From the NCBI GenBank assembly GCA_000310025.1, contig FN649744.1:1505113-1569112 (forward strand): a stretch of DNA of 64,000 nucleotides. Reading direction: 5' to 3'. Below, one piece after another: positions 6,289-62,265 of this stretch (positions are counted from its first letter, which is position 1; the number at the start of each line of letters is the position of its first letter). The translations under genes were made by a program, and so were the position numbers. The stretch is from Ectocarpus siliculosus (lineage: Eukaryota; Sar; Phaeophyceae; Ectocarpales; Ectocarpaceae). The notes under the pieces were generated by a model. That model saw only the letters and a program-made list of their open reading frames with translations. It was not told the origin of the DNA and did not search any database.

Positions 6289-13446
<7,158 letters not shown>

Positions 13447-33268: not shown

Positions 33269-33859
33269 CTATCTCCCTGCCAGGACCGAACACACCTCGC
33301 CCAGCTCGAAACCCTCGTCGTTGGTGACGTCATCCACCATGTCCATATCCACCGAAAACTGTCCATCGCTGCCGTGATCATCGCTTTCACGCCCGTCATC
33401 TTCTTCGCCGCCGATACACGCGTCCCCTCCTTCCCCATCGAGATCGTCACCTCGGTCCTCTTTCTCCCCCGCCTGGCTCGGCGGTGACTCCGGTCCCACA
33501 ACGATCGGGCCGACGACAACAGCATTGTCATCGCCGTCGTCCTCGTTGGTCGGACACACTCTGGCGGTTCCACCAGTGCCGGTGTTGCCCTGCTTCTTGG
33601 CCCCGCCAGGACCAGCGCCGCCGCCGATTTTCAGGAATCTTGATACCGCGTTCCGCGGATGCCTCGGCGGTGGTGTCACTTGTCTACCTGGAGGCGGCTG
33701 GCTCCGACTTGGCCCTTTGGCACGCCTTCCTCGCCACGGCCACCGCCGCTGACGCCGGCGCCGGCGCTGGCTCTTGGGTGTTTGAGATGGTTGCCCTCCG
33801 GAATGCTTGCTTTCTTCCAGGAGAGGAACTCGTACCCGACCGGTCGCCGCCAACGTAGT
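33269..33859 (-). other. Giant gene last exon: basic then acidic tail
   Basis: After a good CACAG acceptor the exon reads a strongly basic stretch (SQRRRRRQRRWPWRGRRAKG), then about 80 residues dominated by Asp, Glu and Gly, ending GFELGEVCSVLAGR and TAG. A GTGTGT donor-like site near the end means a further tiny exon cannot be excluded. Confidence 0.65.
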
Positions 33860-36800
33860 CTGTGTTTCGTGGCCGCCATGAAGAACGTGCCGTCCATTTG
33901 TGTTTGTTCCGTTTTATGGAGGGTAGAGGCAGGAGCGAGGTGAGTGCGCGAGGGTCGTGGATAAGAGGGGGTGGGCCCAGTTGAGGTGCGGAGGAAGGAA
34001 AAACTCTGCGAACAGAGCTAGTTTCACCCTAACCTACCGTGCTGCATCATCCCACTCTTGATAAACGGACGGTGGGTATCTTATATCTTCGCGCGTTCTT
34101 CCTGAGCTGTTGCTTGGTGATATGCTCGGTTTCGTGTTGAGCATCTACTTACTCGTTTCCCGTGCCCATGGTAGGCGCGATCATACGGACTGCTAAGTCG
34201 TAGGGAGTAGATCGCACTTGACGATGGTTTACCGTTGGTTGCACCAAAAACGCTCACTGACTCTCACGTGCCGCCTATGCGTTAGTCTTAACGGTGCAGT
34301 ACCTGAGGAATCCCCGCGAAAGAGAGCACATGCGCCGCTTCCGCCCTGCTTATCTCGCCGGGTACCCCGTCAGCCTTCACAAAAAAACGAGACAATAAGA
34401 AGAAGAGACGAGAGCAATGTTTTGGCAACAGAACAGCCGCTGTCACCGAATTCCTGTGGGACGATCAAGCCAAGGGCGTCTCGGGTGTTTTCTACGCACC
34501 TCGCAAAGCGCAAAAGCGCGCCGGAGTTCATCCCGAGCAAGATTGTTCATCGCCGAGGCTATCCGCCTGCAGTTGGGACGAAAGTGAGAGTCGAGAGAGT
34601 TGATGGCGGCAGTTAGGGACGTCCGTCGTAGGGTTATTGGGAGACAGGCGTCGGCGTGATTTTCGGGCGAACATGTTTCGGTAGCTTTTCGTACTTACAA
34701 CCAATCCTCCTTGCCGTCTTGCTTGCAACATTGTTCTAGAACAGCGCCGGAGCGCCCAGAGTAAGGCCACGTGTCGAATTATATGTACTTGGAGTCATTC
34801 ACCGATTGTACACGAGGGACGAGTCTCGAAACACGCTTGGACCATCAACCCCCCCCCAAACGCCTCTGTACTTTCCCAACGGCGGGTTGTTGATCTCACC
34901 TAATTGTCCTCACTCCAACCATGGATTTTCTCCACGGATCGACCGCCACCGCTGTTCTGGCGGCCGTGTGCTGTTTCTGCTGTCGACGTTGGTCTCTCAC
35001 CGTTGCAGTGGTAGCCCTGAGCTCCTCGCGGCCTGCGGACGTCTTCAGGAATGACCGACATTCCGCGGCAGCCAATTCCTGTCAGATGCACAGAAAATCG
35101 TAGACGGTTGGGTGAACAAACTTACACATTGGACACATATTCGTAGCAACACCGACTTGTGTTGAACACGATGCTACTCAGCCCAAGCGAGCTGTTTCGC
35201 GCTCGTATAGCCGAGACATGCGTATTGTCATTGATCAGCCGAACATCAAGAAAAATGTCGGCAAACCAAACACTTAAAAAACGTTTTCCTTGCGTGTCCT
35301 GTCTAACCTCACTTCGTTTTAGTTGTCAGCCGGCCAGCGCGATTGATACTGACCGCTGAAACACGTACGTACACGTATACAGACAAACACCAGCGCATTC
35401 AATGTCCGCGGGTTTTCTTTCCCGCTCCAGATGGACTCTTTCACTGGCAAACCAGCTAGCGCGGTCGGTGCAAATTACGCAAACACACACACACACACGT
35501 GCACACCTCGCCCAGCGCGAGCGCTCGGCCAAGCTTGGCGGCACCCATCGTCATAGCCCTGAGACGGTCCACGTCGGCCGGCGTAGCGCCTCCGGCTGAT
35601 TCTATGCCTCGCTTCGTTTCTGCAGCCTCGGCTAGGCGCCAGGGCTCGCCATCCTCCAAGGCGATGGCGCGAGCAAGTTCATGCCTACCGAACGGGGGAC
35701 GCGGGCATCCAGTATCTCGATGGAATGCACGGTCAAAAGTGGCTTAAGTACTCAAAGCAAGTTCATGCCCAGGGGTGGGGAGCGCCGTGGCACGTGAGTC
35801 GCACCGGGAGTCTGAATCTGGTAGCACGTTGAAAGGCTGCTCGGGAGTGAACCTTGGGTTGAGTAGGTTATCAACCAAGGAGAGGGTGCTACAGTTGTGA
35901 GCAGGAGGAATTGTACATTTTACCCAATTTGTAGACAGGCGGTTTCACGCACCTCTCGAAGGCCCTCCCTTCTGCTAGCAGAGCCTGTTTGGCCAGCTTC
36001 CGGAAAGCACCTGGCGTGAAGAACATTTTCAACTTTAGTTTCGCGATGGTCGCGAGGTCCGCCCGGATCTGAGCCTTTGTCCGAGGTCGCCTCTCGCCTT
36101 CCGCAGCGCTTCCAGCTGAGTTGGCCAAGGCCGAAGACGAGGGGCGATGCAGCGAAGCCAATACGTCTGCAAGGTCGACCCTTGTCGAGCGGAGAGAACG
36201 GAGCGGTAGGGTTAGCACGTCAAGAGAGGAGAGAGGTTGAAAGTGTTTCCCGTCAGCAGCAGATACGCGTTGTTTTTCGATTGATTGATGCAAGCAGGAG
36301 CGGCGCTGATGGTTGGCTCTTGTTCGTGTTTGGTTCGGCAAGGCCCCGGGAGGTTCTTGTCGAACGAACGAGCTTGGCCTTTGGGGAGGTACGCCACTGG
36401 TACGTTCGTCGTTGGTGACGTTTCACGAACAATACACTTCGACGGCGCGGCGGGGTGGGTGGGGGCGTCGAGAGCGCTACCGAGTGCCTTCGAGAGCATG
36501 TGAGAGGGCGATCGGTGTCTTTTGAACACTTTTCCCAATACTTTTCTATCCACCACGGTAGTAGAAAGCTCGCATGACGGCTACAAAAGGCACGGAAAAA
36601 AGGAAAAGGGTGTGTCGGTCTGGTGATGTTGGAAAGATCTGTTCGTTTGGTACCAAGAAATTGCTGTGTTGGAAGGCCTTATTAAAACAGGGCTTTAGAA
36701 ACGGTTGTTCGATGAAGAAGGTGAAAAAATATGACCGCACGAGTGAATTGCATGGTGGTGGATATTGACTACCACCATTGCCTTTGTCGATCGAAGGTAT

Positions 36801-39800
36801 GACAGTGAACGCTCAGGCTAGACCTCGCTGAATAAGTCCGACACCGGAAGAAGGATGAAGAAATGATACCCAAGAGAAGTCAGTTTGGGAGTGAATGGGC
36901 GTTGAAATATATGAAGTGGTGGTCTTTCGACGACGTAGTTTGTGGAACGGACGGAATGGAACGGAGCAACTTTGGACGCGGTTTGAAAGTAGGTTACTCA
37001 AGATTATCGTGGGAAAAAAGTCTTACATTAGCATAGGTCATTAGTCAAAACATTCGTTACCATTCGCACAGCACACACGGTACCTCGTCAGGGTCTTGAG
37101 GTCTCGAATTTCGTCGTGCGCATGGTCGTCGAAGATTGTGCTCAGGCTCAACGCATCTCCTGATTCCACACCCGCTGTACGAGCAGCATTTGGCAAGGTC
37201 GCTTCTTCTTCGGCTTGGGGCGGTAGCCCGAAATCAGCACTTGTACGAACGATGTTGGCGGTACGCCCCGCCGTGCCCTTTGCGAGGGTTGAACCTAGAA
37301 GCGTGACCTGCTTCCAACCGGATAGTCCGACGTCAGAGTAACGAGGCACTTGGACGCAGAGAGTCCTTGGTCGATATGGCAATCCTTTCACTTCCGAGAC
37401 AAACCTGGAATTACTTCCTTGAGACACGCGTAAAGCCTACCACAGGCTAGAAGCATTGGGTATATTGTTGAATTCGCTGATGACATTAGTGAGTTGCATT
37501 TCTTCACCTTCCTTTCTTCCCACCCTCCAGTGTGCCATACGAAACGACTCTTTCACAGCATTCCTTGATTTTTTTTCTTACGTCAACTCATGTGATGACA
37601 TTCCGAATATACATCTGTCCTTCCATATCGGCTATACTTCTTCCAGGTGTTCAAACAGGAATGAAGGCCAGCAAGCGCACCCGTACACCTGACTTTTCGC
37701 TCACGGCTCTTCGACGTGATGAACGTGGCATCACCTTGTACATCTGCACGCTCCATCGTTATTTTCTCTCTACCATAACCAATTGGTAAGGTCCCCACAC
37801 AACAGGGTTGATACCTCACCTGACTCCCCCATATTCTCCGGTTGGCCCCTCCTACCAACGTGCTGCGCAGACTAGCGCCAACGTACTTGAGTTCCGACGG
37901 CTCGACCCCCGCACTCGCCCCCGCCGTTTCCAGCGTTACCCCCGCCGCAGTACTGCGATGCAAGCCCCACAGAAATCGCAGGATGGGTGCCTCCACAAGC
38001 GGAATACCGGAGGTATCGGTGGAAGTAGCGTGCTGTCGCTGTTCTTTTCGCTGTGTTCGTTGCTCCTCCTTGTCGTGGCTGGCCCCTTCGTACGAGTAGT
38101 CAGCTGATCCTGCGGTGCCCAACTCTCCGCTTCCACTTTCCCGAGCGATGCTTGTGGCGGTCCTTATGGCAGCGCTCCATTCGAGGCGCAAGTCGCGGGT
38201 CCGCCGAGCGAGCTCCCGCTTTCCAGCTTGTGTGAGGATCATGGCCTAGGTTCAGGAAAGATCGTTTCATTTTTCCCGAAGAGCCATGCTGGTTGGTGGG
38301 ACGAGGGGCTATAAACGGCTTCTTTGAATGTCTGATGACTACGTCTAGGTACTGCGCCAAAATCACGCTTTCCCCAATAAAACAAACGGAAAAGAGCAAG
38401 GGTATCACAATAATAATAGAATACGCGTCATCACCACCTGCACATCGGCGTAGGCCTCAGCTTCCGCCCTGGCCAGCTTGGACGATCTAGCAGCCGCCAG
38501 CCTCTTGGCATTAAGCCTATCTCCTCGTCCCTCTCCCCCTTCGCCGACACCACTACCTTCGCCACCAAGGCCCTCGGTACCATCCTTCAGCAGCGGCTTG
38601 CCTGGTGGAGCGCTACTAGTACCACCACACTCGCGGCCAACTCTTGTTTCAAATGCCACGAAGTACTCGCCCGCGGCATCGGCTGCAACAGCACTAGCAG
38701 TGTTGCCAGTGGCGATCTTCGCGAGACGTAGCGCCTCCTCGTCTTCATCTTCGAGGCGAAGAACGTTCTTCACCTACGGTGGTGTTGGAACACGTCGGCA
38801 AGGCAAACGTTGGTAGGTAGCGGCTACGGTGTAAGAGGGTTGGGACAAGCCAACAACACTCTCTAATTACCGCTCGTCTCTTAACCCGTGCTGAATAATA
38901 TATGTATTTCTCATGGTCGGGACCAGCCAAAAACACTCTCTGAATGATTCGATTTTTTCTTCAATAGTCTCTCGCAAGCCGTAGCCTCTACTGTATTGAG
39001 CAAATGATCGGTTGAACAGCCACGGAAGCCCAATCATGATCAGAAGTCATAGGGGATGCCACTTCCAGCGCCTTTGCGGCGATTCACGTAAATTTTGCGC
39101 TTACGTTTCATTGCGGACGGCGCAAACCACGAACATCAACCACAGTACATCCGATCATAGAGCCAAGCGCAGACACGTTACAATTTGTGGTGAAACGGTA
39201 ACATCATGCAGATGGGGCGGTCGGACGGGGGTACACTCGGTGCGTTCGAACAAACGAAGGGAAAGCGTCGACATCGACATCCCTGCACTACCAGGGCCGA
39301 GCATCCATCGGCACCTTTGTTGGTAAACAAGCAAATGAAATGGTTAGAGAACATCTGAGACTACAAAATACATCAAATCTTAGGTCGTTTGAGAGTTTGA
39401 CGTCAACCGGAAAGACCACCGGAGGTTGTTGCAAAGGGAAACAACAACCCTTCCTACATCAGGCCTTCACTTCGTCTCACAAACGTTCCCGATTGATGTA
39501 CCCCTGTCCTCTTGACATCGAAAGTACACGTGTTGCATCCAAAGGGACGTATCGTCTGAAACCTACATGTCACACGACCCCAAAACTTTTGTCCCCCTCG
39601 GCCCACCACCCCACCTCAGCTCTCGCTTCTGCTCGCGCCCTGCTAATCAAGGCCCGTCGAGCGTCTCTCCGTGCTGCCGTTATCGGGGCCACCTTGGCCA
39701 CCAGCGATGATGCCGCCGAGCGGATCAGAGCTGCCGGGCGATTGGATCGCTTCAGCCCGTCTTTGTGCCACCAAGCCGAGAACTCGCAGAAGTCTACGTC

Positions 39801-42800
39801 GCCGCTGCCGTCTCTGAGAGCGTTCGATTTTGTTGCAACCCAGGGAGGGGCAAAAATCGCGGTGGGATCTAGCTTCTTTTTTTTTGGAAAGAGGGGGTTT
39901 CGGTGGGTGAGTACATGGGTACACACAGAATGGGTTGGGGGGGGCGCTCAACGGTACGGTTCGAAGTGGTTGTTTTGAGAGAGGAAAAGTGGAAGGGCGC
40001 CACACGGACGGGGGGGACGAATGTGACGAACGATCACATGTCGTTCGGGGATACAAGCCGCTGGGAACGAGCAGGTGGGGGAAATACCCTAACGACAGTG
40101 ATCGAGATACACGACGATGGCGTAGAAGGGGTGGGGGGTCGCACGCGTTGCTGGGCTTGACACGGTGGCGGGGTTTTCGCTCTCTGCCTACGGGACTTTT
40201 CTCCTTTGTTGTCGGCGTTTTTCTATTACTGTAGGCACGACGTTGATGCTTGTTTCATTCTCCGCGGTTGGCAAGACCGACGGTCACTTGCCTGTCCATC
40301 TCATGGAGCAGACCCACGATCTCTGCCTCGGACATCGGCACGTTCATGCGAGACAAGAGTCTCCCCAGCTCCTCCGCGTGGATGCAGCCGTCGCACGACA
40401 CGTCGAACAGCCGGAACATATGGCGCAGCTTCTCCTGAAAAGCAATGCACACCAAGATTATTGATGAGAGTCGGTTGACGGGTGGAACTCCAAGCCGCGG
40501 AAGGTTTGCAGAGTTATTGCCGTTAACAGTCGCTATGTCCCTTGAGCAAGCAACACCGTCGATAGTCGCGGCCGAAGAAGGCTTGAACACATGTGTGAGT
40601 CCAGTGTTCCATCTTTGGATGATCCCTACAACAGGAAACTCAACAGACTACAATTTTCACCCTCGTGCATTTCGTTCGACGAGCTATTGCATTCAACAAC
40701 AACAACACCTTCTTCTAGCCCTCTCAATAACATGGACCTGATCGCCCTTGCACATTCAACGCGCACAACACCACAACTACCTCTGCCCGTTTTGTCTCTC
40801 TCAGCGCTGAAGCATCTGTCTTTGTGACGCCTGCCTCCTCCTTTGCGAAGCTAACACCCGCATCCCAGGCTCGGAGGGTCAGGTTCAAGGCCTCCTCCGC
40901 TCCGCGTATCCTGTCCCGTTCCCGCTTGAGTTCTGCTGCCCCGGCTTGGGTTCTCCATTGTCTGAAAGGCAGTGGTTGTTGGGGTAGTTGAATCGCTCGT
41001 CTTCGAAGCATCTACTTTCAACAGAAGCAACTACAATATCTCTTGGCCTCAGGGGGATACTACATTACGTGGAGGCGGATCCTGTTGGCTCGGGCTTGGA
41101 AACGGATATTTGAGGCACTGATTGTAATGGATCCGTGCAAACATTTGCTGAAACAAGTTATCCTTCAGCGAAACCTTCACTCGTGACAAACGGAAATTCG
41201 TACAACCGTGATGAAAATAACTCATAAGAATAAAAGAGGTTCTTGGTTGAGGAAACTCTATTTAGTAGTCAGCGCCACAGAACACCATACCAACACATCC
41301 TGCAGAAAACGGCATGACATATGATGTGATTTACTCAAGTAATGGACGTGCGTGCGTGTGCACCTACCTCTTGATGCGCCGCTCCGCCACGTCCTCGGCC
41401 CGCTTCACCACCAGCTCCCGCTCAGCGTCCCTCTCCTCTTCCTCGAAACGCCGCCTCCTCCCCGTGGCCCTCGTGGCCAAGACCCGTCCCCGTTCCTTCC
41501 CTCCTGTCACCTTCACGGCCAATGCCGGCTCCTTCCTTGCCGTCGCCGCCTCCACCGCCACGGCGTCTTCGTCTATAACTTTCTTTTCTTCTTCGCCTCG
41601 TTGCTGATGCTGCTCCTGTTTTTGAGGATTTGGATCTTCTTGCTTGGCTTGTTCGTGGGGTCCGTCGATCGCTGCTGTCGATGCTGTCGTGGCTACCACC
41701 GCCGGTGCTGCCGCGGGTACTGGTGTAACGCCCGATGATGCCCACACTTCCGCCCTCGCGGCGGCCCTTGATCTCGCTACTATCGAGGCTCGAACCTTAG
41801 ACAGAGAGACAAACAAACCGGCAGACAGACAGAGAGACAGACAGACAGACACCGAGACAGACAGACAGACAGACAGCGACAGCGACAGCGACAGAGAGAA
41901 GGAGAGAGGGAGAGGGAGAGAGAATATGTATGGCGTGGGTGGGTGGGGGGTGGGTGGGGGGTGCGGGGAAGTGTCGCGTTCCTCATTTTCGGGAGGTTGC
42001 CCCAACGTTACGCTTGCTTAACCTGGGAACGTTCAGTGCATCGATTCTCTCTTGTTTCTTGTGCGCACAAGAACGCCGTACAAACGCCTGGGGAAGGTTT
42101 CAGTTCCACTTGAGACATGTTTCAGACGATTTAATGAAGGGGCGAGAGTGGTAAATTCGCACTCGTGCAAAGTTTCCAACAGTCGGGCAGCGTACCATGG
42201 GCCAAAGAAGGTTTGTCGAAACATTGTCTCGCTCGAAACAACTTTGCTTCGGTGGGACTTCCTCGGGAATTGTGTTGACCTACTGTAGATATCTACTTGT
42301 GTGTGCGCGTTTGTTAATTTTACCTGGCTTTCTAGTCGGCGTGTGGAGCTCCCACCAGCCTTGACGCTCTGTCCGGCCCGCAACATCTTGCTCAAGGGCG
42401 CCCGTCGGAGGTCCGCCCCCTCCTGCACGCAGATTGTTGGTTTGCCCGAAGAAACGCGGGACAAATGCCATTGGGTCAGCGTCTATGTTGCAGCAACTCC
42501 ATATCAACCAGCGGCATACATATGCGTGCGTGCGTTTGTTCAACAGGAAGCAACATTCGCGCACAGTTGGTCTTCGGGCATCCGTGTACACGCACAGATG
42601 GTCAGAAAAGTAGCACATGGAGTGTACGGAAACCTTTCAGAACGTAGCGGTGGTCAAATACGACAACCACGCAAGCTGCTTCCTTGCTGAAGATGTATCA
42701 ACAAAGCACAAGCCTCGATGAGCGCGTACATTTTCCAGCCACGTCACAAGTTCCTCCTGTCGGATGTCCCCGGAACAGTCGAGGTCTAGCCTTGGAAAGA

Positions 42801-45800: not shown

Positions 45801-48800
45801 ACTTGGGGTCGCCCGACGCACGTGCCCCTACCGTGTCATCTTCGTCGGCTGTTGACGCCGAAACCGATGACAAGGACGAAGAGTCGCTACTACCACCGCT
45901 ACTGTCGCTACCGCTACTGCCGTCGTCTGCGTCCTCTTCGTGGTTCGCTTCGCGATCTTCTTGCGCATTAGTCCCGCCGGTCGCGCCATTGCGCACGCCG
46001 AGGACTTTGACGTAGAGCGGCTCCTCCGACTCCCTCCCACGCTGAGGTAGTTCTCCGGGTGCTGTCGACCGGTTAGCCCCGTCGTGTGCGTCGTACCCGT
46101 TGAACCACCGCATGAACTCGTCGATATCGACCTGAAGGGAATCCATCAAGGGCAGGACGGGAAATCCCGGCACAGTAGTAGTGGGGGAAGGGGATGGGGT
46201 GAGACGGCCAGGGCTTCTTCTCCGGTGCCTTGTACAGCAATGGAACCTGATCACGGTGCAGCTACAGATAGATTGTCCTATATCGGCCTGGCTGTATCTC
46301 AATCCGTACCTGGCCGCTATGGTCTTCGTCCATCGCAAACATGGCCGCCTCAAGCCCGTACCCGGCTGCGGCAGCACCCGAACCCAAGGCCGTGCGTGCG
46401 GAGGGCGGCCTTCCCGCGATCCGCCGGAGCACCCCCAGCAGATCCGCGAGGTCGGACACATCGAGTTCGCCGTTCCCGTCTCGATCGAACGCCTGCGTTA
46501 CCCGGTGGAGAAAGCGTCATTTTGGGACTCGAACTTGATGATCTAAGGGGCGTACTCATGCTTTTCATGCCTTAGTTCTGTGACCGTCGACCACGCGTCC
46601 TCGAGAGGACAGAGCATTGTGATAAGCTTAGGGGTGGTATTGGTTCAAAAACAACCGTTTCTGCTGAGAATTGCAGTTCACGTGTAGCTTTCTGGGTATG
46701 TTCGAGCGCCCGAAATCGACACACGGCGTTCTGTTCTCTGGCCAAGAGGCGCGCTTCCGTTCATTGTTCTAATTTTCCAGGTCCCATCCACGAAACCCCC
46801 CGTCTTACTGCGCACTGTAGCTTAATAATCTCACCCACCACCACCCCCTCATATGCGCCTATGCGTGAGCCTGTACGAAGCAAGTCTTACCCGTCTCGGT
46901 ATTTAAACGTCCACCACCGATCTTCAAATCTGCGTACTAATGTACCCACAAGTCCCCTCGAAACCCTTCTTTTGTCCACACCTTTGTCCCGCGGCAATAC
47001 TACTTCAAGTAGAGTTTCTTCCGACAATCGAACGCATTCCGCACCGAGCACGGATGAGGGGAAAGACAACTAAATGTAGCAACATTGGGAGAAAGGCCGA
47101 CGCCCCCCCCCCGACACATACCTGAAAAGCTAGACGCGCAACCGTCGCCGTCGCCTCCTCAGTCGTTGGGACTGCTTCTTCTTCCGAGGAACCACTTTTA
47201 CCCCCGCCACGCTTGAGGTCGGACGATAGGGCCGCAAGCAACCTTGCCCCGAGAGCTGCGTGCTCGTGCGCGCCAGCGCTACCCTGAAGTTTGGCATCAC
47301 AGAGTTTTGTTTTAGTCTCGAAAGCCCGACGTGGGAACGGAACGAGCGAAGAATACAGCGATGGTGCGGTTGGCGGTGGTGTCAACACGCAGCTAGGGTC
47401 GTACGCTTGAGAGTGGAAACGTTCCGGGCACCAAGAACGTCTAGAGATGTAGCCAGTGCTAAATATCATGCTTGCTCGGTACACCACTATTATTGAACAA
47501 AGGTACATGTGACACAGAGCATGTCGGGCATGGCGGTGATTTGCAACAACTTTCAAGGTTACACCATGAATGCGTTCATGTCTACGACCAACCCTCGACC
47601 AAATGAATCGTAAGATCCCATAGCTGACGAAAAGACTGCGATCGTTGTTCTTAGACCAAGAAGTCTTATGTCGTGCTTTCTCCGTCGCTTCCGATGTTAT
47701 CGCTACTACCACGGAGCATTTGTTGTTGTTGCCCGTCGACATCTTCGCCAGGTGTTGGGCATTTACTCGTGTCTACCTCGAATCATCGCGGCCATTTGTC
47801 AATCTCTTGGGAGCGTTGTCGTGAGCACGGTGCAAGGGCCATCGCACTCATTTTCCAACTTTCCTTCACACCTTTGGTGCGATTCTGGCTTCTTCGGCGG
47901 CCTCCGCCCTGAGCCCGGCGGCCGCCAGGCGGCTCCTCTCATCCAGCAGCCGCGCCCACTGCCGCTCCGCGCCCCGTCGTCGGTGCTGCTCTTCTCTGAC
48001 GGCGGTAGTCGGGTCGAGAAACAGACGGCCACGCTGCAGACGTTGCTTCTGCTGCTGGTGGTGGTGGTGGTGGGGTTGCTGCTCCATTCTTCGCCGTTCC
48101 AGCGTCCCCTCGAGTTCTTTCCCGCATGTGAGACCGGCACCACGAGCGAGACTTGTAGTGGGTGGATCGTCCAGCGTAAAGGGTAAAACGAGAGAGAAGA
48201 AGAGGGTGGAGTTAACGAGAAGCAGGTGGAGCGTGCGTGGCTTGAGGGTCGAGGAGGCGGCGGTGCGAACGGGGGTGACGAGGGGGTGATCGCTCTTCAG
48301 TTACCGCATCCCTTGAAGAACCCTCAAGGATGCTCTTTGAGCTGGTGGACGTCGTCGCACTGAAGGATAGCCGTTTCGAATGGCTGGAGTCGTGTCCACC
48401 ATCTCTCAACTGTTCTATGTAGCACTTGCTATCAACACCACTATTCAATCGGTTCGAGTGCGCAACAAAAACAAATTACTTCGATTGAGATTCAACCACT
48501 ACGTGTTTGTTTCTCGGTACATTTTTTCGCCCTGTGTACCTGCCGCCCCCGAAGTGTCGCCAGTAGTCACCGTACAAAGCGAAGGCCTGGTGGCATGCCC
48601 AGCACTCCAGGGTAGGGGGCCAAGCCTCTCGGAATCGTACCTTCGGTGATAAAGAGGGAGTATTACGGAAAGGAGGGGGCGGGGGAGGAGTCGAAAAGTT
48701 CTTCACGAGAGTAGGCTATTGAGGACAATATGTTCAGAAGCCGAAAGCAGTGCGGCGTGTACGTTCAGAGACCTTTGCAATTAAATACCAAGCAGGTGGC

Positions 48801-51800
48801 ATTCTCAGGCTCTTGGCTCGCTTGCTACTCAAGGAGTAGACCTCAGTGTACCAAAATGTTTGGTTTTGAGAAGCCTTGCAACCGTTAGAAGGCGAGTGGA
48901 CGAAAGCCCCTAGCCATGAACCACTTGAAGCACTCACTCGCCGGCCACATTTACACAAAACCGGCATCTCAACTCTAGGCACTCGCGATTACAGGTTCAG
49001 CCGTCCCTCTCTTTCATTCAATACAAGTTACGCTATCGTTTGGAAGTCAAAACCTGCGGTACACAGTATGGGGGCATTCTGGATACCTGCGCTTCCCGGG
49101 CGGCCAAGGACACCCAACGACGGATGACGCTGCGACGGGCCCGGTCCTGCAAGGCCATGCCCGTGGCCGCTCGGAGGTTTCGGCGTGCCTGTCAAAGAGC
49201 ACAAGTTGTAGGGCACGTGCTGGCGTGTGACCGGAGAGAAAGATACTTCGAAGGATCCGTTCGTGGGAGCAACAACCAAAACGGCAAGCGCGGTGAACCG
49301 GTATTGGGACCAGAGCAAATGCTTGGGGGTGCAGGCGTGGAGTGTAAATCGGCAGGGGAACCTTGGATTATGTTCTGAAAAAAATTCCTTAGGGTGAGGG
49401 ACGGGGAGACATTCACTTCAACGAAATTTGAAGGTCGGGATCGGTCCCCCCGGTATAGGTAAGAAAGGTAACATCCCGCTCGCGGTGTCTGACAGAATTC
49501 TAGACTAAAACAGACGTACCTTCAGCAAGGAACGGAATTGTTCGTTCATTTTCAACTACTTCCACTTCTTGTCTAGGCAGCGAAGACAAAGCCGCTGAGA
49601 ATGCCGTCGTCATTTCTTCACCACGCCAACTACTACTTCTGATACAACAACCCTGGGCTTTCTTGGTCACCTTCACAAAAGTTGCGCGAGCCGTGTGTCT
49701 CGGCCCCCCGTTTCCCTCGGCTGATCGGTACCCGGACGTCAACGCCGCGGTGGACTCTTCCATTCCACTTCTCGCAGTGGAAAGGCTTGGACTGCTGCGA
49801 AGACTCCAGTTCTCTGATGTGTCGCTCGTCATACCACGAAACCCGAGGGCTTCACCCACGCCGTAATCACCGCCACCATGGAAGCCACCCCCACCGAACC
49901 AAGCGTAGAACTCGGAGAAACTGATCTCCCCGCTACCGTCGGCATCGACGGCGGCCGAAGTTACCTTCAGTTCCGCGTTGGTGATCCCAACGCCCAGAGC
50001 GCCTAGGAGGGCCTTTAGCTCCGTGTGCTGAGTGGGTTTGAGGGCACGCAACACTTGCGAGGTCATTTTGTTTGGTATGGCTGGGTCCATCATTCTAGAG
50101 TGAAGAGGCATGAACGATGGTCCATAGGGGTTCGACGGGGTATGGGAAGGGGGATGGAAGGGAACGACTCGGACGAACTGGTATCTTTGAGCCGATACGC
50201 CTTGACGCGAACGCAACGCATCATTTATGCCTGACATCCCTGACATCCCGGTGCAATATTTCGCAAATAGTACTTGGCACCAACTGCGACTGTGGGAAAA
50301 AGTACCCCGGCAACGGTGGCCGAGAGTTTGCTCCCTCTTTCGCACTCCCCCTGACTCGAGACCCCCGTCTCACATCGATGGTGCCAGAGCCATCGAGGTC
50401 GAAAGAATCGAACACATCGTGCGCGCTCGCTCGTCGCCGCTCCTCCGGAGACGCGCCTCGCATCAGGATCTTGGTTCGAACGACGGCAGCCTTCGCGCGC
50501 CTCATCTCCTGCGCTAGTTCAACTTTTCCTGCGTCTGTCTGCACGCAACCAGTTGCGGGGGGAAAAGGAGTAGATGTTTGTTGGGATTGTTGCTGTTGTT
50601 GTTCTTGTTCTTGTTTTGTGGTTCTGGGTGGGTGATGTGACAGTAGGCCATTGATGGACTTTGGGCAAACGTGGGTGCCGTCAATGGGTGATGACCATGC
50701 GCCTGGTCTCCCTCCTATGCAGCACTCTCTTACCGTCAAGTACATGTCGGCCCTCGTGGTCGCCAGTCGCACAGCTCCTCCTACCGCCGCCGCTTCCGCC
50801 TCGCACCGGGTTATCTCCCCGTCCACGGCGAACTGCCTCACCATCCCGGCGAAGCGCCGGTGCAAGAAGCCTCGGGCCACGCGGTTGAGCCCTGCAACTC
50901 GTATTTGTGACGACACGACAGAGAGCATCGTGGGGCTACGTAGACGCGTTTGGTTGTCACACGCACAGAGGGCCAGCCCTCGATGCGTCCGGGCGAACAC
51001 CGGAGTGAATGTTTCTGGGAGAGAAGGGGGTGGTGGCTTAGTTAAAGGTGGGCCCCTGACAATCGCTGTGTTGTGACAAGATAGGTATATTACATGAGGT
51101 GGTACGCCATATAAAGCGTCTAAATTTGAATCTTGAACAAGTGATGGTGGTAGGAGGGGCGCGCGCCCTTATGTCCTGATGCACAAAAGCGGTTCCGCAA
51201 CACGGAAGAACCAGACATGTTGCCGCATACAGTGACACACGGAGCCAAGTGCTTATCACGTATCAAAGCCAACATGCCTCCCTCATCAATACACCCTTTG
51301 AAGGCCGAGGGGGGATGGGGAAGTAGTGACATCACCATAGTGTGGCTAACGACTACGTCATGCCGTGTGGGAAACCAGGGGGTTGGTACTATGTGGCAGT
51401 AGCACGTGCATGTGTTGAGTCAGGCCTTGGCTCGGGCCGTTGCTGCAGTCCGAACGGGATCTGTCCTGTTATCTCCCTTGCTAGCCTGGGGTCAGTCATG
51501 AAGACATGGGAGATCCTGAAAGCGAAGACATCGACACCAACGACAACTTCAACAACGACAGCCAGAGGCATCCTCTGAAGAACCGACGCACAATCGAAGA
51601 AGTGCCTGTGTGTACAACAAATAAAGGCAGGCTTTATTACCCGAAAAACGATGTGTGCACGTACCTAGGGCCGCCCGCCACAGGCTAGTGTGAATCTCCG
51701 AGATCGCCGTCGCCCTCACCCTCCTCAGGACGAATCCCCTGTGCAAGGCCTGCAGGAGTCCAGCGGAGGCCTCCTCAAGGCGCATTCGTTGGGTCGTTCG

Positions 51801-54800
51801 CTTCGCCAGGAACATTCGGACCTGTTTCCAAGTCCAACGTTCCCGGAACCGATATGTCGTATGGCTAGACAAAGGAGGTTGGGCCGGGACCCCCGCCATC
51901 TCAGCTAGGGGCATGGCCAAACTCTTTTCATCCGCAGAGGGTGGTGGTTCACATACTGTCGCGCCTAGACTGTGCCGAAACATTTTCCAGCTCTCTCTAG
52001 GTTTGGGTGGACGCGTTGCGCATCGCTCAGACCCAACACCCTCACGTCCCTTCAATACCCCACTCTCTTCCTCACCACCGACTGCGCCGAGATGGTGTGC
52101 CGGATCAAGATCCGAATCTCTCTAGCCTTGCGCCTTCCGTGGGCCCCTCGTATGATCGCTTGAAACTTCACAGTCGCGAGGCCTAGCCGGTACATCCGCC
52201 GGCGCCAAGCCCTCGCCACGAACGTTGCCGCGCTGCTCCGGTGAGTTTTGTCCTTCCGGGCGCCGACGCGGGCCAGGTGCCCACGGAACGCAGCGGCGGC
52301 GAGCGTCTGGGCGGCGGTTCGTCTGTTTCACGCGCGGGAGGTTTCGCGTGGTTTGGCATTTTGAGGGTTAGTCGGTAATCTCGTATTTTTCGTTCTTCCT
52401 GTTCAAGGGTTATTAAAGGAAGCCTGGGCCGAGGCAACAGGGTTATGGTACTTCACGTTCGAGTCGCGCACTGCCTGCGCAGTTTGGTCCCCGATGGAAA
52501 TGTGACGTGCCTGAGGAAGTGTCGGCGATAGGTGCGCTCGATGATAGAAGCGAGGTAGTGGGCTCTAGCAGAGTACGGGAACAAATCCGGGCCGGCTCCA
52601 GCACCAACGCCGCGATCGCCGCCCCCGAGTTGGGCGGAGCGACCCTTTCCTGCAGCAGGGGGGCATGGGCTCGCAGTGCCACCACTACCGTCCCGAGAGC
52701 CAATGCGACTGGCGCCTTCTCTTTTCCCCGTGAGCTCTGCCGCCGCCTCCCCGTAGAGCCGGACCGCCTCGTCCCGGTCCCCCCTGGCCTCCATCACCGC
52801 CGCGACCTGCCCCAGCCAGACCGCGCGGGGCGCCTCCTCGGCGGTCCCGCGCTCCATCGTGACGGTGAGGAGCGAAGACGCAGCAGTACCGGGCGCCGAA
52901 ATACACGCGGCTCCTTGCGTTGTTGGGCCTCTTCCGGCTCCGGTTGGCGCCGCTTTGATGCCGCTGGTCGTTGTCGCCGTCGCTGTTGCTGTCTTCTTCT
53001 TCCTCCCGTCCGGGGATGTTGCGTGCGCCGCGGAGGGCTCATTGTCCGGGGGGAGGTTCGCTTCGGCTTCGTGGCTGCCGCCGGGGGGCGTGAAGCGACG
53101 GCCAGACTCATCGAACAGCTTTCGTTGACGTAATTGGAAGGGTCAGGGTTGGGGAGAGGGAGACAGGAAACTCAATTTATCGTCTTAGTGAAGGTATGTT
53201 TCTCGCTTGAAATTGTTTCCAAAAGCAAAGAGAAGGGGGTTGCCAACACAATGAACAACAGTAACACGTGTGGTTTTATGTCAAAGGATTTGCTGGGGCA
53301 AGGGCGCGAAGAAGAGATATTACACCCTGCAGAACGTCTCTCGACAAAAGAAGAGAATCTTTGCCCAGCGGAGCGACGTGTTCTTGTCAACACCCCTCGA
53401 GCAGGTGGTTATTGGGCAGCGCCGAACGTGTACCTGTTCAGGTCGCCTCCCCTTTGGCTTTCGGTGGGAGCTGCGTCGGATACAGGTATACTTCCACAAC
53501 GTCGCTGCCTGCACCGAACGCTAGCTCTGAGCAGATTTCCGCGACGTTTTCGAAATGGTAGTAAGCCGAGCCTTGTGATTGCCTCTCCGCAGCACCGGGG
53601 AGGAGGGCATCGCATTCGGTATCCGCCAACCATTCAAGTCTTGTCTAGCCCCTACCCCAACCAACCACCCAATTAGCTCAGTCTCAGCCCGGGTGCCAAG
53701 ATGCTCACCCGCACTTGCCCTTCAGAACACGTCAAGCGAGAACTCACACGGGTTCTCCTGACTCGCATCGAGTTTGTTGTCACCGCACAAAAGCACAAGC
53801 CTAAACCTGAAGGTGGCACGACAACAAATCCTCCCTTACCCGTGCGCCCTCCGGAGGAAGGTAGGCGAGAACGGCGTTCAGGGGTCTCGCCAACTGGGAT
53901 GCGACGGGGTCGGTCCACACGCCGAGGCCGAGCGAGCCCTCGAGGAGGCCGACAAAGTTGGCGGTCATGCTCTCGGAGGGGGGGGTTGGCTCCAGCGCGT
54001 CCCCCCCCAGCCCGAAGAAGGTTTGGTCCTTGCGCCCGGCGGTGACGGCGCTGGCGGCGATTTGAGGCCAAACAGAGAAAGCAAACAAAAAAATTGAAAT
54101 GAAGAGACGAAAAGGCGAGGGCGGTGTTTTGAACGAAACGATTTTGAACAACGAAACGTTTCTTCGAAGAAACAAGCGCAGCGGTGAAACAAACCGAAAG
54201 AGAGCATCGGCTTACCGCGGGAACACGCTTGGCGAGAAAACAAGCTTTGTCATCACAACGAAAGTGGCCAAAGAAACGCGATTGCGCCTGGCTCTTTTGT
54301 GGTTCCCATGCTCGTGCTCGCTGCACACACTCGCTGCAAGATTTCTAACGGTGCAATAGAATGAATCAATCTGGGCAGGGGGGAAAGATGGGCACACCAT
54401 TGCCCACAACCAAGGGATATATCAGGGTGGAAAGACAGTAGTACTGTATGTCACAATGCACACAATCGTGTCCTCAGCACAAAGGCGCTTCCAAACAAGC
54501 CTGCAGGCTACACCACACCTGTTGCTCCCATCGCATGGCTGTCCTTCTTCGGCACGGCCACCACCTCCGACTGCGCCCCCGTCTGAACGGCCGCCACGTC
54601 CACCCGCAACCATCGTTACGGCCCGGGGCGGGGACTTTGGCGACCCGGAACCTTGGCGTGCCGTACCTGCTGCCGCTGCCGTCGTGGACGAAGCCTGGTC
54701 TTCGAGAAAAGCAGCGAGACGACGTCGAGATCTCTCTCCGTTCCTCCTTTCGCCATCACCGCTGGCCGTGGCAGTGGCGGTCGCTCCGCGCTGGCGCTTT

Positions 54801-57800
54801 GGTCTTGACGCGTGCTGTTGTTGTTGGTCTGAGTAGGGCGGCCCGGAGGCCTTCGTCGGGAGGCCTCTCTGGTGGGCGGCGCCAGCCACAACGCAGTCAC
54901 CACCTCCAGTAGCAGCAGGGGCAGCTAGCGAAGAGGAAACATCTCTGCGACGTCGCGAGATGCAAATGATACGCGTAGAGCGCACACGTTCGCATAGGTT
55001 GTCAGCGCTGTACTTCAGTACTTCTGGAGCAGAGCAGAAGACAGGCTTCGACCGGCTGGAATACCATTCCAGTTAACAAGGCTACTTCAACTCATAGAAA
55101 AGGTAATATTAAACACCGCGTAAGAACAGACTCCAAGAGAGCATTGGCAAAGGTGACTGAGGCTGCTGTGTCGCCATGAAAGAGTACGACAAATTGGTGT
55201 TTCTCAACATTCACAACCAATCTTCTCCTGACTCCCATCAAGAGCCGCCCTGGATAGTAGCTATGCAGTGGTTGTCTCCGGCGCATCCCTCTATGATCAA
55301 CGCGAACACCCTCCAGCCTAGAGCATTCAACCGTTACAAGGATGTTGCATGCTCAGCGACCAAAACGAGCAAATCAATACACCAACCGAGTCATTCCCCA
55401 CCTTGAGCCGGTCGTAGCAGAACTTTCCACAGCGATCTTGATCGGCCGTCGCCCACTTCCCGCGCCATCGGCGGCATCCTCTGCGCTATTGGTTGCCCTC
55501 GCTCCTGCTGCCACAGTCACTGCTTTCAGCGACGACGACGACGACGACGGTTCTACCGCTGGCGGTGCGTCACGACAAAACTCCTCTGGAACGACGCCAA
55601 GCAGACTCGTGGACACCTGTGACGGTAAGAAGTACGTCAAACGCATGACGGACAGTCCGACAAGGGACGTTGTGTGATGGAGTTCGGGGGAGCACGGCAT
55701 GCAGCAGGCTGGACGTATAAGGCTATCGTATTCTCCAACCCGAGCAAGAGACGAAAGACGACTGGTGACATAACCTACCCTTGCTTTCGGTGGGTAGACT
55801 CGCTTGCGTTGGTCAGTGTGTCGAAGGGGATCGTTCTGCCAGCTCCTGAACTAGCGAGGGACAAACAACACAAGAGGCTCGTGGGACGTAACCTCGTTCA
55901 TGCCAGCCGTATCCGCAGCGGACCCGGAGTAGTCGACTTTTAAACCCAGTATTTCCAGACTTCGCACAAGGTTCTTAGGAACATACCCCGCCGTTGGACA
56001 GACCGGAAACTTGAAAGCCTTCATTACGGACGCAACTTGCAGTTCTGAAAGCGTCTAGCTAACGGCTCCTAAATCGTGTCCCTACATGCGCTCTAGGAGT
56101 GCTGGCACACAAGGGCGAAGCGACGTGGAGCCCACCCGTCGCTGCCAAATTATCCCAACATCTTGCACCACGTCACGCAATATAGTACGCAGCACAACAC
56201 ATCAAAATAACGAGCAGCAAGAGAACCACAGCGGACCGCATTTTTCGCGCACACCTTCTCTTCAATCTCCGCTCGAGCGTCCGCCGCTGTGGACGCCCCC
56301 CTCTCGGCCCTGGCCCGTCTTCCCGCCCGCGCCTTCGCCGCCGCCTCCGCCGAAGGACGGGGGCGAGGCCAAGGTGTGTGGTGCCGGTACTGCGGCAGAC
56401 GGTAGCAAGTATCTCTCCCTTGTCCCCTCCGGTCTGTGCGTTGCTCGGTGGCTGCTCGACGGCTGGCGCCGCGGCTGCCGCCAGTGGGTCTGGGTGATAT
56501 CGGTGCTGACGAAGAATTTGGCAGCAGAAGTGGCGCCTGTGTTGATGGGTGGCGTTGGTGGCCTTGCCTGTACTGTTGTTGCCCGGCAGTGTTGGCTGGC
56601 GGCGACGAAGCCATCTAGGAGACAAGAAGACGGGAATGTATTCATCGTTGGAGAGTGGGTGTAGCGATAAGGTTCTTTTGCCGACATGGCGCTTACTTCA
56701 CCGAGGGCCACGTACGGCAGGGCATGCCATGCGCCAAAGCTACACAATTCCCAGAACCCCAGTTCGGCTAGGCGATCTTTTCTCACACAACTCGTTTGCC
56801 CCTCCCACATGTACGCCGAAAAGCACAGAGGGAAATGGATTGGACATGGAGAACCAAGAGGGTAAAACATCTACTACGCATGGAAATTGAGCCCCGTAGA
56901 AATGTCGGGGCGTTCTCCCCCCCGAAGCTGGGTGGGACAACGTGCCCTGCCGACACAAGAAATAATACATCTGTGGCACATCCTTCACGGGCTCCTTCAA
57001 TTCTAGAGAGGGGTGATATCTACGAATACCGAGGGCGAGGACACCTTTCGCCTGAGCTCCGTCATCGGGTAGTCATGGTTACACTTGTCGGCATTCGTTC
57101 CGAGCAGGCTCAGCATGTCATCCGCCTCCTTTTTCCAGCGCCTAATATCTGGTGTGGCCGGTGTGGCTGTTTCACACCGGCCACTGTTTGCAGTAATCGG
57201 CCTAGCGCGACCACTACCGTCGTCCACATTCGCCTCGTCTTGCCCGCTTGGGGCACCATGCCGTTGGCCTGAGCGTCGTTGCCCATGTGGCTCGAATTCT
57301 TTCTCGGATTCAAAGGCTGCGGAGACTGGCAGGAGATCGTCGGTGGTGATACCTAGCTTTGTGCGAAGCTTGAGCATCTTTCGAGCGACCACCTCCTGCA
57401 CAGTGATGACTGGTTGCTCCGGGACCGGCGCCACATTCTGCGAAACAACGTTTGCGGCGACCGAAAATATATGCAATACACCGAGACTCTAGACTGCAGC
57501 CTAGTCTTGTCAATACGTGGGCAAAGGCACGTCGACTCCGGGAAGGTATGGCGTTCCGGTGGTTGCGTGTGTACATACATCCTTAGAAATACACATACGT
57601 TCACGGAAAGACTGTCCACATCCTTTCACCGCCACAAGATGCTGCAAATAAGGGAAGAGGGTCCATCGAGCAATGTAGAGAAGCCGACGTCCGTTTGACA
57701 GCGCCGTTCTTTTGATCGTGTATTGAGACTGGATTTTTAGCGGCATCCAAACTGCGTGCGTTCAAAGCAGTGGATTTCGCCCCAACGATGGGCTACAGGT

Positions 57801-58198
57801 GCAAATGTGCGCGGTGAGCGGAGAACCGCTATGATATCCGCACGTGCGCTTAATCACATCCCGTTGACTACATAAATATGTATGACTGCTCGGCTTCCAA
57901 AGGTTACGGTTTCGTGCTCGCTTACCTTATTGTAGGGGGACGCCCCAATGACGAGCTCCCGCCAGTCTTCACCCCACCGCCGCTTCCGAGGACGGGCTTT
58001 CTTGTCAACGGGGAAGGTCTGAGTCTGCGTGAGATCGACCCCGGACAGACCCGGGAAACCGATCCACGCCGGCGCTGTCGATAAGTCTCGCTCGCGGCCG
58101 AGCTTGATGAGCCTTGCGTCGTCGTCGTTTTGGCGGCGTTTCTTGGCGGCGGCGTTGGCGGCAGCGGCCGTAGCGATGGGAGTGGCAGTCTTACTCAT
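33269..58198 (-). CDS. Giant IQ / EF-hand / C2H2-finger protein, about 3,260 aa, 36 exons
   Basis: All exons join in phase, and the total of 9,783 bases is a multiple of three. Exons, 5' to 3': 58198-57926, 57437-57045, 56614-56255, 55616-55402, 54944-54519, 54050-53840, 53644-53492, 53118-52457, 52322-52076, 51992-51665, 50891-50734, 50538-50374, 50027-49671, 49188-49087, 48640-48540, 48383-48305, 48108-47872, 47283-47122, 46492-46310, 46131-45346, 45071-44920, 44317-43969, 43570-43153, 42890-42730, 42422-42324, 41795-41368, 40961-40781, 40434-40292, 39813-39615, 38773-38438, 38245-37820, 37307-37084, 36180-35953, 35684-35507, 34374-34303, 33859-33269. Order along the protein: basic N-terminus, TPR-like helices, tandem IQ motifs, two EF-hand pairs flanking a zinc finger, acidic/basic linker, two more EF-hand pairs, helical segments, acidic tail. 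Expected to bind Ca2+ and calmodulin-like proteins. I know no family with this arrangement. Least certain: the donor of exon 7, the acceptors of exons 10 and 17, and whether exon 1 is really first. Two adjacent genes instead of one is possible but no internal start and stop is needed. Confidence 0.75.
34303..41795 (-). other. Giant gene exons 26-35: helical charged segments and a degenerate EF-like site
   Basis: Exons 26-27 encode Glu/Arg-rich helices (RRRRFEEEERDAERELVVKR; ELKRERDRIRGAEEALN) suited to coiled coils. Exons 31-34 contain IRTATSIARESGSG, LKTLTRVDLADVLASLHR and RHELARAIALEDGEPWRLAE. The exon 34/35 join gives GEADGVPGEISRAEAAHVLS, which has the shape of an EF-hand loop with one extra residue and is probably non-functional. 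No catalytic domain was found. Confidence 0.55.
39615..40434 (-). other. Giant gene exons 28-29: EF-hand pair 4
   Basis: Loop 1 is DVSCDGCIHAEE (about 2473-2484), with His at position 9 and so possibly weak for calcium. Loop 2 is D-R-DGSGDVDFCE (about 2509-2520), created by splicing within codon 2 across an intron whose donor is GC (AG|GCAAGT). Spacing is again 36. Following SAWW matches the exiting-helix aromatic pattern seen in the other pairs (YAWF, MRWF). Confidence 0.85.
41802..41930. repeat. GACA/GA low-complexity tract
   Basis: Tandem GACA, GACAGC and GAGA units on the plus strand inside the giant-gene intron 41796-42323, just upstream of the acceptor of exon 26. On the transcribed strand this is a TCTG/CTCT pyrimidine-rich run. 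Minus-strand frames through it are Leu/Ser/Cys repeats. Confidence 0.85.
42730..43570 (-). other. Giant gene exons 23-24: EF-hand pair 3
   Basis: Exon 23 opens with an Arg/Ala-rich helix (RDAAAARRRAFQTPTGRAEI) and ends EQLFQLFD. The intron falls within codon 2 of the loop, and exon 24 restores D-A-DGSGAIDREE (about 2172-2183). Loop 2 is DLDCSGDIRQEE (about 2208-2219), 36 residues on, with Arg at position 9. Confidence 0.88.
45346..47283 (-). other. Giant gene exons 18-20: EF-hand pair 2 and charged linker
   Basis: Exon 18 ends LAFQ and exon 19 opens AFDRDGNGELDVSD, giving loop 1 at about 1546-1557 with Asp at position 12. Loop 2, DEDHSGQ|VDIDE (about 1598-1609), is split by the exon 19/20 intron. 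Spacing is 52 residues because an Ala/Gly-rich insert (ARTALGSGAAAAGYGLE) sits between the hands. Exon 20 then encodes a long Asp/Ser/Glu-rich run and a basic segment (RKQTKRKRWDEKEEEQEE) that could serve as a nuclear localisation signal. Confidence 0.82.
48305..48640 (-). other. Giant gene exons 15-16: single C2H2 zinc finger
   Basis: Residues 1363-1385 read C-WA-C-HQA-F-ALYGD-Y-WR-H-FGGGS-H, a full C-x2-C-x3-F-x5-(Y)-x2-H-x5-H pattern. The second histidine is the first whole codon of exon 16, so the finger exists only in the spliced product. It lies between the first and second EF-hand pairs. Confidence 0.65.
49671..50538 (-). other. Giant gene exons 12-13: EF-hand pair 1
   Basis: Loop 1 is DLDGSGTID|HTE (about 1189-1200), completed only by splicing: the first nine positions end exon 12 and HTE with its Glu12 opens exon 13. 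Loop 2 is DADGSGEISFSE (about 1225-1236). Loop-to-loop spacing is 36 residues, as in calmodulin-type pairs. All calcium-coordinating positions 1, 3, 5, 9 and 12 are acceptable. Confidence 0.88.
50734..52322 (-). other. Giant gene exons 9-11: tandem IQ motifs
   Basis: IQ motifs (I/L-Q-x-x-x-R-G-x-x-x-R) are the binding sites for calmodulin and myosin light chains. I see AAAAFRGHLAR (about 908-918), FQAIIRGAHGR (951-961), LQALHRGFVLR (1060-1070) and LNRVARGFLHR (1091-1101, assembled across the intron between exons 10 and 11), plus a weaker FVARAWRRRMYR (about 932-943). Two match the consensus fully. In myosins and IQ-scaffold proteins such arrays form long light-chain-bound helices; no motor domain is present here. 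Confidence 0.8.
52457..53118 (-). other. Giant gene exon 8: TPR-like helical region
   Basis: Residues about 777-810 read VWLGQVAAVMEARGDRDEAV then RLYGEAAAEL, matching the tetratricopeptide pattern W-x-x-L/A-G-x-x-x-x-x-x-G-D-x-x-x-A-x-x-x-Y-x-x-A. The preceding 90 residues of the exon are Ser/Thr/Ala/Gly-rich linker. Only one full unit is clear. The exon ends RRQCATRT, running straight into the IQ block. Confidence 0.6.
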
Positions 58199-62200: not shown

Positions 62201-62265
62201 TCCTGGTGAAGCGCGACCGTGAGACTAACGACGATGACGACGACGATCGAGGCAACCCTTCCTGA
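59232..62265 (+). CDS. DUF676-type serine esterase/lipase, 560 aa
   Basis: This is an alpha/beta-hydrolase of the DUF676 group, relatives of which hydrolyse membrane lipids. Four exons join in frame: 59232-59661, 60085-60239, 60610-61518 and 62077-62265. Exon 1 is a long N-terminal region, first basic and His-rich then Pro/Ala-rich, and ends PAHLVVL. Exon 2 continues AHGLSGTPEDLTYLK (oxyanion strand) and TKDGVVEGGSRLAEE. Exon 3 has the nucleophile elbow SLVGNSLGGLYVRY with Ser at about 215, IATPHLGVRR, and the acid region ANRRGDFMVPYGTA. Exon 4 supplies the likely catalytic His in PFSHNKICALSR. About 125 residues of acidic and Ala-rich sequence separate the Asp and His parts, more than usual. 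The exon 2 donor is the weak GTCCGT. Two ATGs (59232 and 59262) are candidates; an organellar presequence is possible but unproven. Confidence 0.88.
61731..61948 (-). mobile_element. MITE copy 2 (218 bp) in the last esterase intron
   Basis: Starts ACAGAACGCGCCCGCACTTA and ends GTGCGGGCGCCTTCTGC. Read on the minus strand it aligns along its length with the element at 8903-9138 (shared AGAACCCAGGAG, AAGAACTTGAGCAC, GAGCTCGGTTAAGA, AAACCTATATA, CCAGCCTCG). It is slightly shorter, through indels. It lies within intron 61519-62076 and has no coding capacity. Confidence 0.8.

Follow-up and report, generated by a model that had tools for sequence, protein, structure and literature searches.

A candidate gene for a large calcium-responsive scaffold protein with four EF-hand pairs, most likely brown algal

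Four EF-hand pairs resembling calmodulin are encoded along a multi-exon coding chain that occupies positions 58198 to 33269, on the minus strand, of the 64,000-nucleotide stretch of DNA analysed here, from now on referred to as the window (C19:1505113-1569112, from an assembly of 189 Mb in 492 contigs). The explanation we favour, to which we give about an even chance, is that this interval holds all or most of a gene whose product is a large stramenopile calcium-responsive scaffold protein, most likely of brown algal origin. A preliminary description of the interval had pointed to an unusual domain combination and suggested that the protein could be a calcium-sensing scaffold. Four calmodulin-like EF-hand pairs on a long charged chain are still best read as such a scaffold, whereas the domain combination itself is not supported.

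Gene model and surrounding features

The working model begins with an ATG at 58198, ends with a TAG at 33271-33269 and consists of 33 exons encoding 2,948 amino acids. It was produced by a purpose-written gene finder combining a self-training three-periodic Markov model with splice-matrix Viterbi decoding, trained on the window and 28 loci. The run converged, and the 33 minus-strand exons falling within 58198-33269 were taken from it. Earlier, 36 exons and about 3,260 residues had been counted. The minus-strand multi-exon chain with the same start and stop codons stands, whereas both counts differ. In-phase exon junctions, previously offered as evidence, carry no weight because any exon assembly is built to satisfy them, and the antisense control is in phase as well.

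As the first training set contained the window, the finder was retrained on 20 loci from outside the window only (200 kb). At start penalties of 7 and 9, the outside-trained finder overlapped 31 of the 33 model exons, 20 of them identical at both ends; the corresponding numbers were 31 and 18 at penalty 5 and 30 and 20 at penalty 12. No gene was predicted in any of five random sequences of non-coding composition used as a chance control, and most of the window's dehydrogenase gene (Iso_dh) was recovered by the same finder as a positive control. The antisense strand of the interval yielded 12 exons with a score of 100, compared with 464 for the sense strand at equal penalty. GC content ranges from 0.49 to 0.65 across the window in 2-kb bins and the median predicted intron is 531 bases long; in three sequenced brown algae, GC is 54-56% and introns average 530-740 bases (PMC6418280), which makes a brown alga the likely source. 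The features of the interval discussed below are as follows.

33269..58198, minus strand: working gene model, 33 exons, 2,948 amino acids; 31 of 33 exons overlapped by the outside-trained finder at penalties 5, 7 and 9, and 30 at 12
56255..58198, minus strand: exons 1 to 3 (aa 1-309), perhaps an independent gene; cut off at penalties 5, 7 and 9 and kept at 12 by the outside-trained finder
52732..52827, minus strand: one TPR-like pair of helices scoring 14.2 bits, below the cut-off of 27.9
50848..52300, minus strand: aa 822-967, rich in arginine and holding IQ-like segments; Pfam IQ match of 13.6 bits, below the cut-off of 20.3
49911..50400, minus strand: EF-hand pair 1, loops at aa 1042-1053 and 1078-1089; loop 1a interrupted by intron 50373-50028; 51.4 bits, profile positions 3-66 of 67
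46117..46486, minus strand: EF-hand pair 2, loops at aa 1319-1330 and 1371-1382; loop 2b interrupted by intron 46309-46132; 36.9 bits, profile positions 4-66 of 67
45580..45702, minus strand: basic clusters KQTKRKRW and KKRRRP beside acidic stretches, seen on inspection of the sequence
42751..43156, minus strand: EF-hand pair 3, loops at aa 1914-1925 and 1950-1961; loop 3a interrupted by intron 43152-42891; 36.6 bits, profile positions 4-65 of 67
39783..40404, minus strand: EF-hand pair 4, loops at aa 2215-2226 and 2251-2262; loop 4b interrupted by intron 40291-39814; 52.2 bits, profile positions 1-65 of 67
35013..43540, minus strand: five segments like [FWIL]xTxxGxxEL (43540-43505, 40957-40922, 38239-38204, 36023-35988 and 35048-35013), pattern written post hoc
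33296..33547, minus strand: acidic C-terminal tail, seen on inspection of the sequence

Elsewhere in the window, the control gene encodes a 3-isopropylmalate dehydrogenase-like protein in nine exons (12139-6289, minus strand; Iso_dh 448 bits, profile positions 2-348 of 348). Ribosomal protein L20-like exons are found at 19699-18154 on the minus strand (Ribosomal_L20, 121 bits), and a DUF676 putative serine esterase gene lies divergent from the EF-hand chain at 59454-62265 on the plus strand, where part of exon 3 scores 76.6 bits. Two long Gly/Ala/Pro-rich exons end a plus-strand gene at 24610-26427, and the strand opposite them also carries long open frames; when four exons just upstream and the start of the first long exon were searched with Pfam, no family matched at E up to 0.01. 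The window further contains a 66-base unit in a tandem duplication that looks recent (11311-11435, 98% matches) and a GA dinucleotide array of 83 copies (1305-1470). An Rfam search of the whole window at gathering thresholds returned no matches.

EF-hand pairs, other claimed domains and relatives

Searched as a whole, the joined protein matches Pfam EF-hand_7 with E = 4.5e-43. After splicing, each of the four pairs (eight loops) also exceeds the Pfam cut-off of 30 bits on its own, confirming the eight EF-hand units in four spaced pairs described previously. The first loops start at residues 1042, 1319, 1914 and 2215 and are thus unevenly spaced, at 277, 595 and 301 residues. One loop is cut by an intron in all four pairs, yet after joining the match covers nearly the whole profile, and four introns of the model therefore rest on protein homology beyond the finder. 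When the unspliced genome was searched, a single EF place appeared in the interval, at C19:1545406-1545546, covering profile positions 2-50 (150 of 206 candidates scored).

By inspection, six of the eight loops carry D, D, S and E at positions 1, 3, 5 and 12. Loop 2a departs slightly with N at position 5 and D at position 12, as does loop 4a, which has S, D and E at positions 3, 5 and 12 and cysteines at positions 4 and 7. Judged by these residues, most loops look calcium-competent. Alignment of the four pairs shows 13 invariant columns, including a tryptophan after the second loop, and because this terminal tryptophan is identical in all four, the pairs look like copies of one ancestral pair. 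PDB searches with the EF pairs gave calmodulins as top matches, together with centrins in one search, and no scaffold protein was recognised among the best matches considered (best 60 of 364, 60 of 433 and 60 of 188).

The preliminary description had further listed a TPR-like unit, tandem IQ motifs and a single C2H2 finger, and had suggested searching the spliced protein against Pfam. In such a search the EF-hands pass while C2H2, TPR and IQ stay below their family cut-offs. These three families were examined at loose Pfam thresholds on separate pieces and by regular expression or score. A C2H2 regular expression run on the three minus-strand frames of 58600-33000 found seven matches, two of them overlapping, and none of the seven lies in a model exon. 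A finger split by an intron would escape this expression, a case covered by a looser pattern applied to the joined protein, which gave no match either; the finger is therefore rejected. The best C2H2 lookalike, CWACHQAFALYGDYWRH in intron 49086-48049, has no second histidine at the usual distance and no Pfam match. Inspection by hand indicates that it could be spliced in via other acceptors, in which event the second histidine would still be missing. The TPR-like unit is likewise sub-threshold, with 14.2 bits for TPR_7 (cut-off 27.9) and 13.2 bits for TPR_14 (cut-off 23.5), and a TPR array was rejected as its Pfam matches fall below cut-off.

The claim of tandem IQ motifs is marginal: a basic region with IQ-like segments is present, whereas the sole Pfam IQ match stays at 13.6 bits, below the cut-off of 20.3, and the excess of segments over shuffled sequences is modest. 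IQ was not listed when a 208-aa region was searched with Pfam at E up to 10. Residues 801-1000, ahead of EF-hand pair 1, contain 45 K+R against 9 D+E. Using a hand-made IQ score, five segments score at least 6.5 compared with 1.77 for shuffled sequences, of which 30 in 2,000 contain as many, and eight reach at least 5.5 compared with 5.64 (213 of 2,000 reach eight); ten further segments of the chain outside this region also reach 6.5. Tandem IQ arrays have a spacing of about 23-27 residues, and the segments found here are unevenly spaced. Calmodulin binding by this region is possible because it is basic and contains FQAIIRGAHGRRKA and LQALHRGFVLRRVR, which we take to be close to the IQ consensus. 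Finder-predicted exons at two other loci of this genome (L001 and L002) are presumably calmodulin-like and centrin-like, and their products are natural candidate binding partners. With C2H2 and TPR failing and IQ marginal, novelty can no longer be based on a combination of TPR, IQ, C2H2 and EF-hand domains. The case illustrates how domain lists drawn up by eye can overreach, with EF-hands holding, C2H2 and TPR not, and IQ on the margin.

Reading of the chain revealed five segments like [FWIL]xTxxGxxEL, for example FQTPTGRAEIAR, WRTQAGAAELKR and ILTQAGKRELAR, which sit among and after EF-hand pairs 3 and 4. The fitted pattern matches five times in the last 1,172 residues against a mean of 0.017 in 2,000 shuffles, and a looser pattern five times against a mean of 0.58 and a maximum of 4; both figures overstate the significance because the patterns were fitted to the copies themselves. 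Over these segments Pfam reported no family: a search of the entire chain at E up to 1 listed EF-hands alone, and separate pieces gave only sub-threshold matches. An alignment of the motif searched against the PDB gave two chance-level matches (E = 0.37). Basic clusters occur at residues 19-23, 66-75, 1521-1528 and 1556-1561, and KQTKRKRW and KKRRRP resemble nuclear localisation signals. The acidic C-terminal tail noted previously is present.

The genome was searched with residues 1-787, 788-1262 and 1776-2318, parts that include EF-hand pairs 1, 3 and 4. The gene's own exons account for 8 of 12, 7 of 10 and 7 of 7 matches. The remaining matches (4 of 12, 3 of 10 and 0 of 7) lie outside the gene, and all of them fall within the EF portion of the query, so that a paralogous family is rejected for the searched parts and, judged by sequence matches, the genome contains no close paralogue of these three parts. 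A multi-EF cluster on contig C12 (L037), predicted as 10 exons and 409 codons, was set aside, neither the tryptophan ending nor the motif having been seen in it. In contig collections, 12 stretches of viral contigs and 207 of genome contigs fitted the search patterns, as did one stretch in another search, and none was confirmed as a relative; this absence says little because the collections are not eukaryotic.

One gene or several

That all exons belong to one transcript is plausible. The preliminary description spoke of one giant gene, and a strong coding chain does cover the interval; its unity, however, depends on the start penalty, and the finder also fuses clearly separate genes. The window-trained run over-fuses, joining the interval to the L20-like exons and to exons antisense to the DUF676 esterase gene. 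The start penalty was varied on the whole minus strand with both the window-trained and the outside-trained models. At penalty 5, the window-trained model leaves the control gene whole, the L20-like exons apart and the interval as a single gene of 38 exons, which additional exons on either side extend to 61472-32052, and at penalty 4 it divides the interval at 52052/51815. The outside-trained model at penalties 4 to 6 gives four genes, 58198-56262 (N-terminal), 55477-52052 (middle), 51785-38405 (EF-hand) and 38242-33269 (C-terminal), and at penalty 7 two genes, 58198-56262 and 55477-33269, with the control gene in pieces throughout. At penalty 9 the control is whole and the interval is cut at 56262/55477, both parts being fused with other exons. 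Exons 51785 to 38405, which include the four EF-hand pairs and a portion of the IQ-like region, stay together at penalties 3 to 7 of the outside-trained model, fragment at 1 and 2, and fuse with true neighbours at 9. Splits forced at the 39 introns of the fused chain, one midpoint per intron, cost 1.3 to 29.9 log units in the window-trained model, the cheapest inside the interval being those at introns 52063-51822 (5.6) and 57023-56537 (6.3). From these penalty-dependent splits and the over-fusing it follows that a single gene is plausible and that the chain is weakest at its N-terminal end, in exons 1 to 3.

A serious alternative, which we place somewhat short of an even chance, is that neighbouring same-strand genes were joined by exon chaining. 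The N-terminal, EF-hand and C-terminal genes, and perhaps the middle one, would each be ordinary alone, and the EF-hand gene would be the sole calcium sensor. The outside-trained finder delivers exactly these four genes at penalties 4 to 6, or two at penalty 7, and the two forced splits named above are cheap. However, 55477-33269 forms one chain at the settings where the dehydrogenase control is whole (penalty 5 window-trained, penalty 9 outside-trained), the [FWIL]xTxxGxxEL motif is present on both sides of the 38405/38242 border, and a split at 52052 would land within the IQ-like region.

Predicted function and comparison with known systems

For the scaffold reading, the following mechanism can be proposed. 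Judging from the loop residues, calcium would open each lobe. The opened lobe would then clamp a basic amphipathic helix, a step modelled on calmodulin biology. This helix could belong to a partner or to the chain itself, where the arginine-rich IQ-like region and the [FWIL]xTxxGxxEL segments are candidates. The long charged linkers would space the four sensors such that the shape of the chain, or its hold on partners, follows calcium. Pfam reported no enzyme domain in the full chain at E up to 1. The scaffold reading is favoured by this result, by the above-threshold EF-hand pairs with their shared tryptophan, the basic region ahead of pair 1, the five-copy motif, the lack of a close paralogue of the three searched parts, the recovery of the chain by the outside-trained finder and the TtCFAP115 precedent. 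Counting against it are the sub-threshold IQ motifs, the finder's fusing at high and splitting at low penalties, the calmodulin and centrin rather than scaffold matches among the best 60 per PDB search, and the uneven spacing of the pairs. A more specific version, which we advance tentatively and consider rather doubtful in its full detail, is a stramenopile scaffold of a type not yet described. Its four calmodulin-type lobes, covalently linked and all closed by the conserved tryptophan, would be strung together with helical [FWIL]xTxxGxxEL segments that would be clamped in cis as calcium rises, allowing graded multi-site switching in one chain of about 300 kD. Any location is guesswork: a flagellar axoneme or basal body might be suggested by analogy to CFAP115 and EFCAB6, the nucleus by the basic clusters.

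Zoospores of brown algae are flagellate, and an unlikely alternative is a CFAP115- or EFCAB6-like microtubule inner protein of the flagellum, in which a stapled chain of EF-hand pairs would lie along the doublet lattice and serve a mainly structural role. Tetrahymena TtCFAP115 is an axonemal microtubule inner protein of 110 kD with a 32-nm repeat that carries four EF-hand pairs in one long structural chain (PMC10105768). EFCAB6 is a structural inner protein of mammalian doublet microtubules that, like the chain described here, has multiple EF-hand motifs (PMC8595878). The likeness to TtCFAP115 lies in the four EF-hand pairs, here shown singly, while likeness as one chain presumes one transcript. 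Unlike TtCFAP115, the protein predicted here would, if one chain, have about 2,950 residues, about three times the size, with a basic IQ-like region and an acidic tail. Its uneven first-loop spacing and mostly calcium-competent-looking loops also speak against a lattice protein, as does the fact that neither CFAP115 nor EFCAB6 was recognised among the best 60 matches of each PDB search with the EF-hand pairs (of 364, 433 and 188) and that a search with the EF core gave no match at E 1e-40. Distinctly improbable is a nuclear calcium-responsive regulator in which the basic clusters would direct import, the acidic tracts, including the C-terminal tail, would bind chromatin or RNA factors and the EF-hand pairs would act as the switch, given that Pfam found no DNA- or RNA-binding domain above cut-off and basic clusters are common among charged proteins.

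Returning to the calcium-responsive scaffold, PPEF/rdgC phosphatases combine an IQ motif and EF-hands in one chain; unlike these, the present chain is without a PP2A-type phosphatase domain in Pfam at E up to 1. The kind of protein is not new because four EF-hand pairs in one structural chain are known from TtCFAP115 (PMC10105768). The variant found here, in which long charged linkers space the four EF-hand pairs and a basic IQ-like region is combined with an acidic tail, was not recognised in the literature searched, largely by titles and abstract openings. If it is one chain, it would offer a way to study how calcium controls the brown algal cytoskeleton, flagella or nucleus. Calmodulin and, in one search, centrin, the top sequence matches of the EF-hand pairs among the best 60 per PDB search, are small free sensors. 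In contrast, the tryptophan-ended lobes found here are part of a long chain which, if single, joins four calmodulin-like sensors that elsewhere are mostly free proteins.
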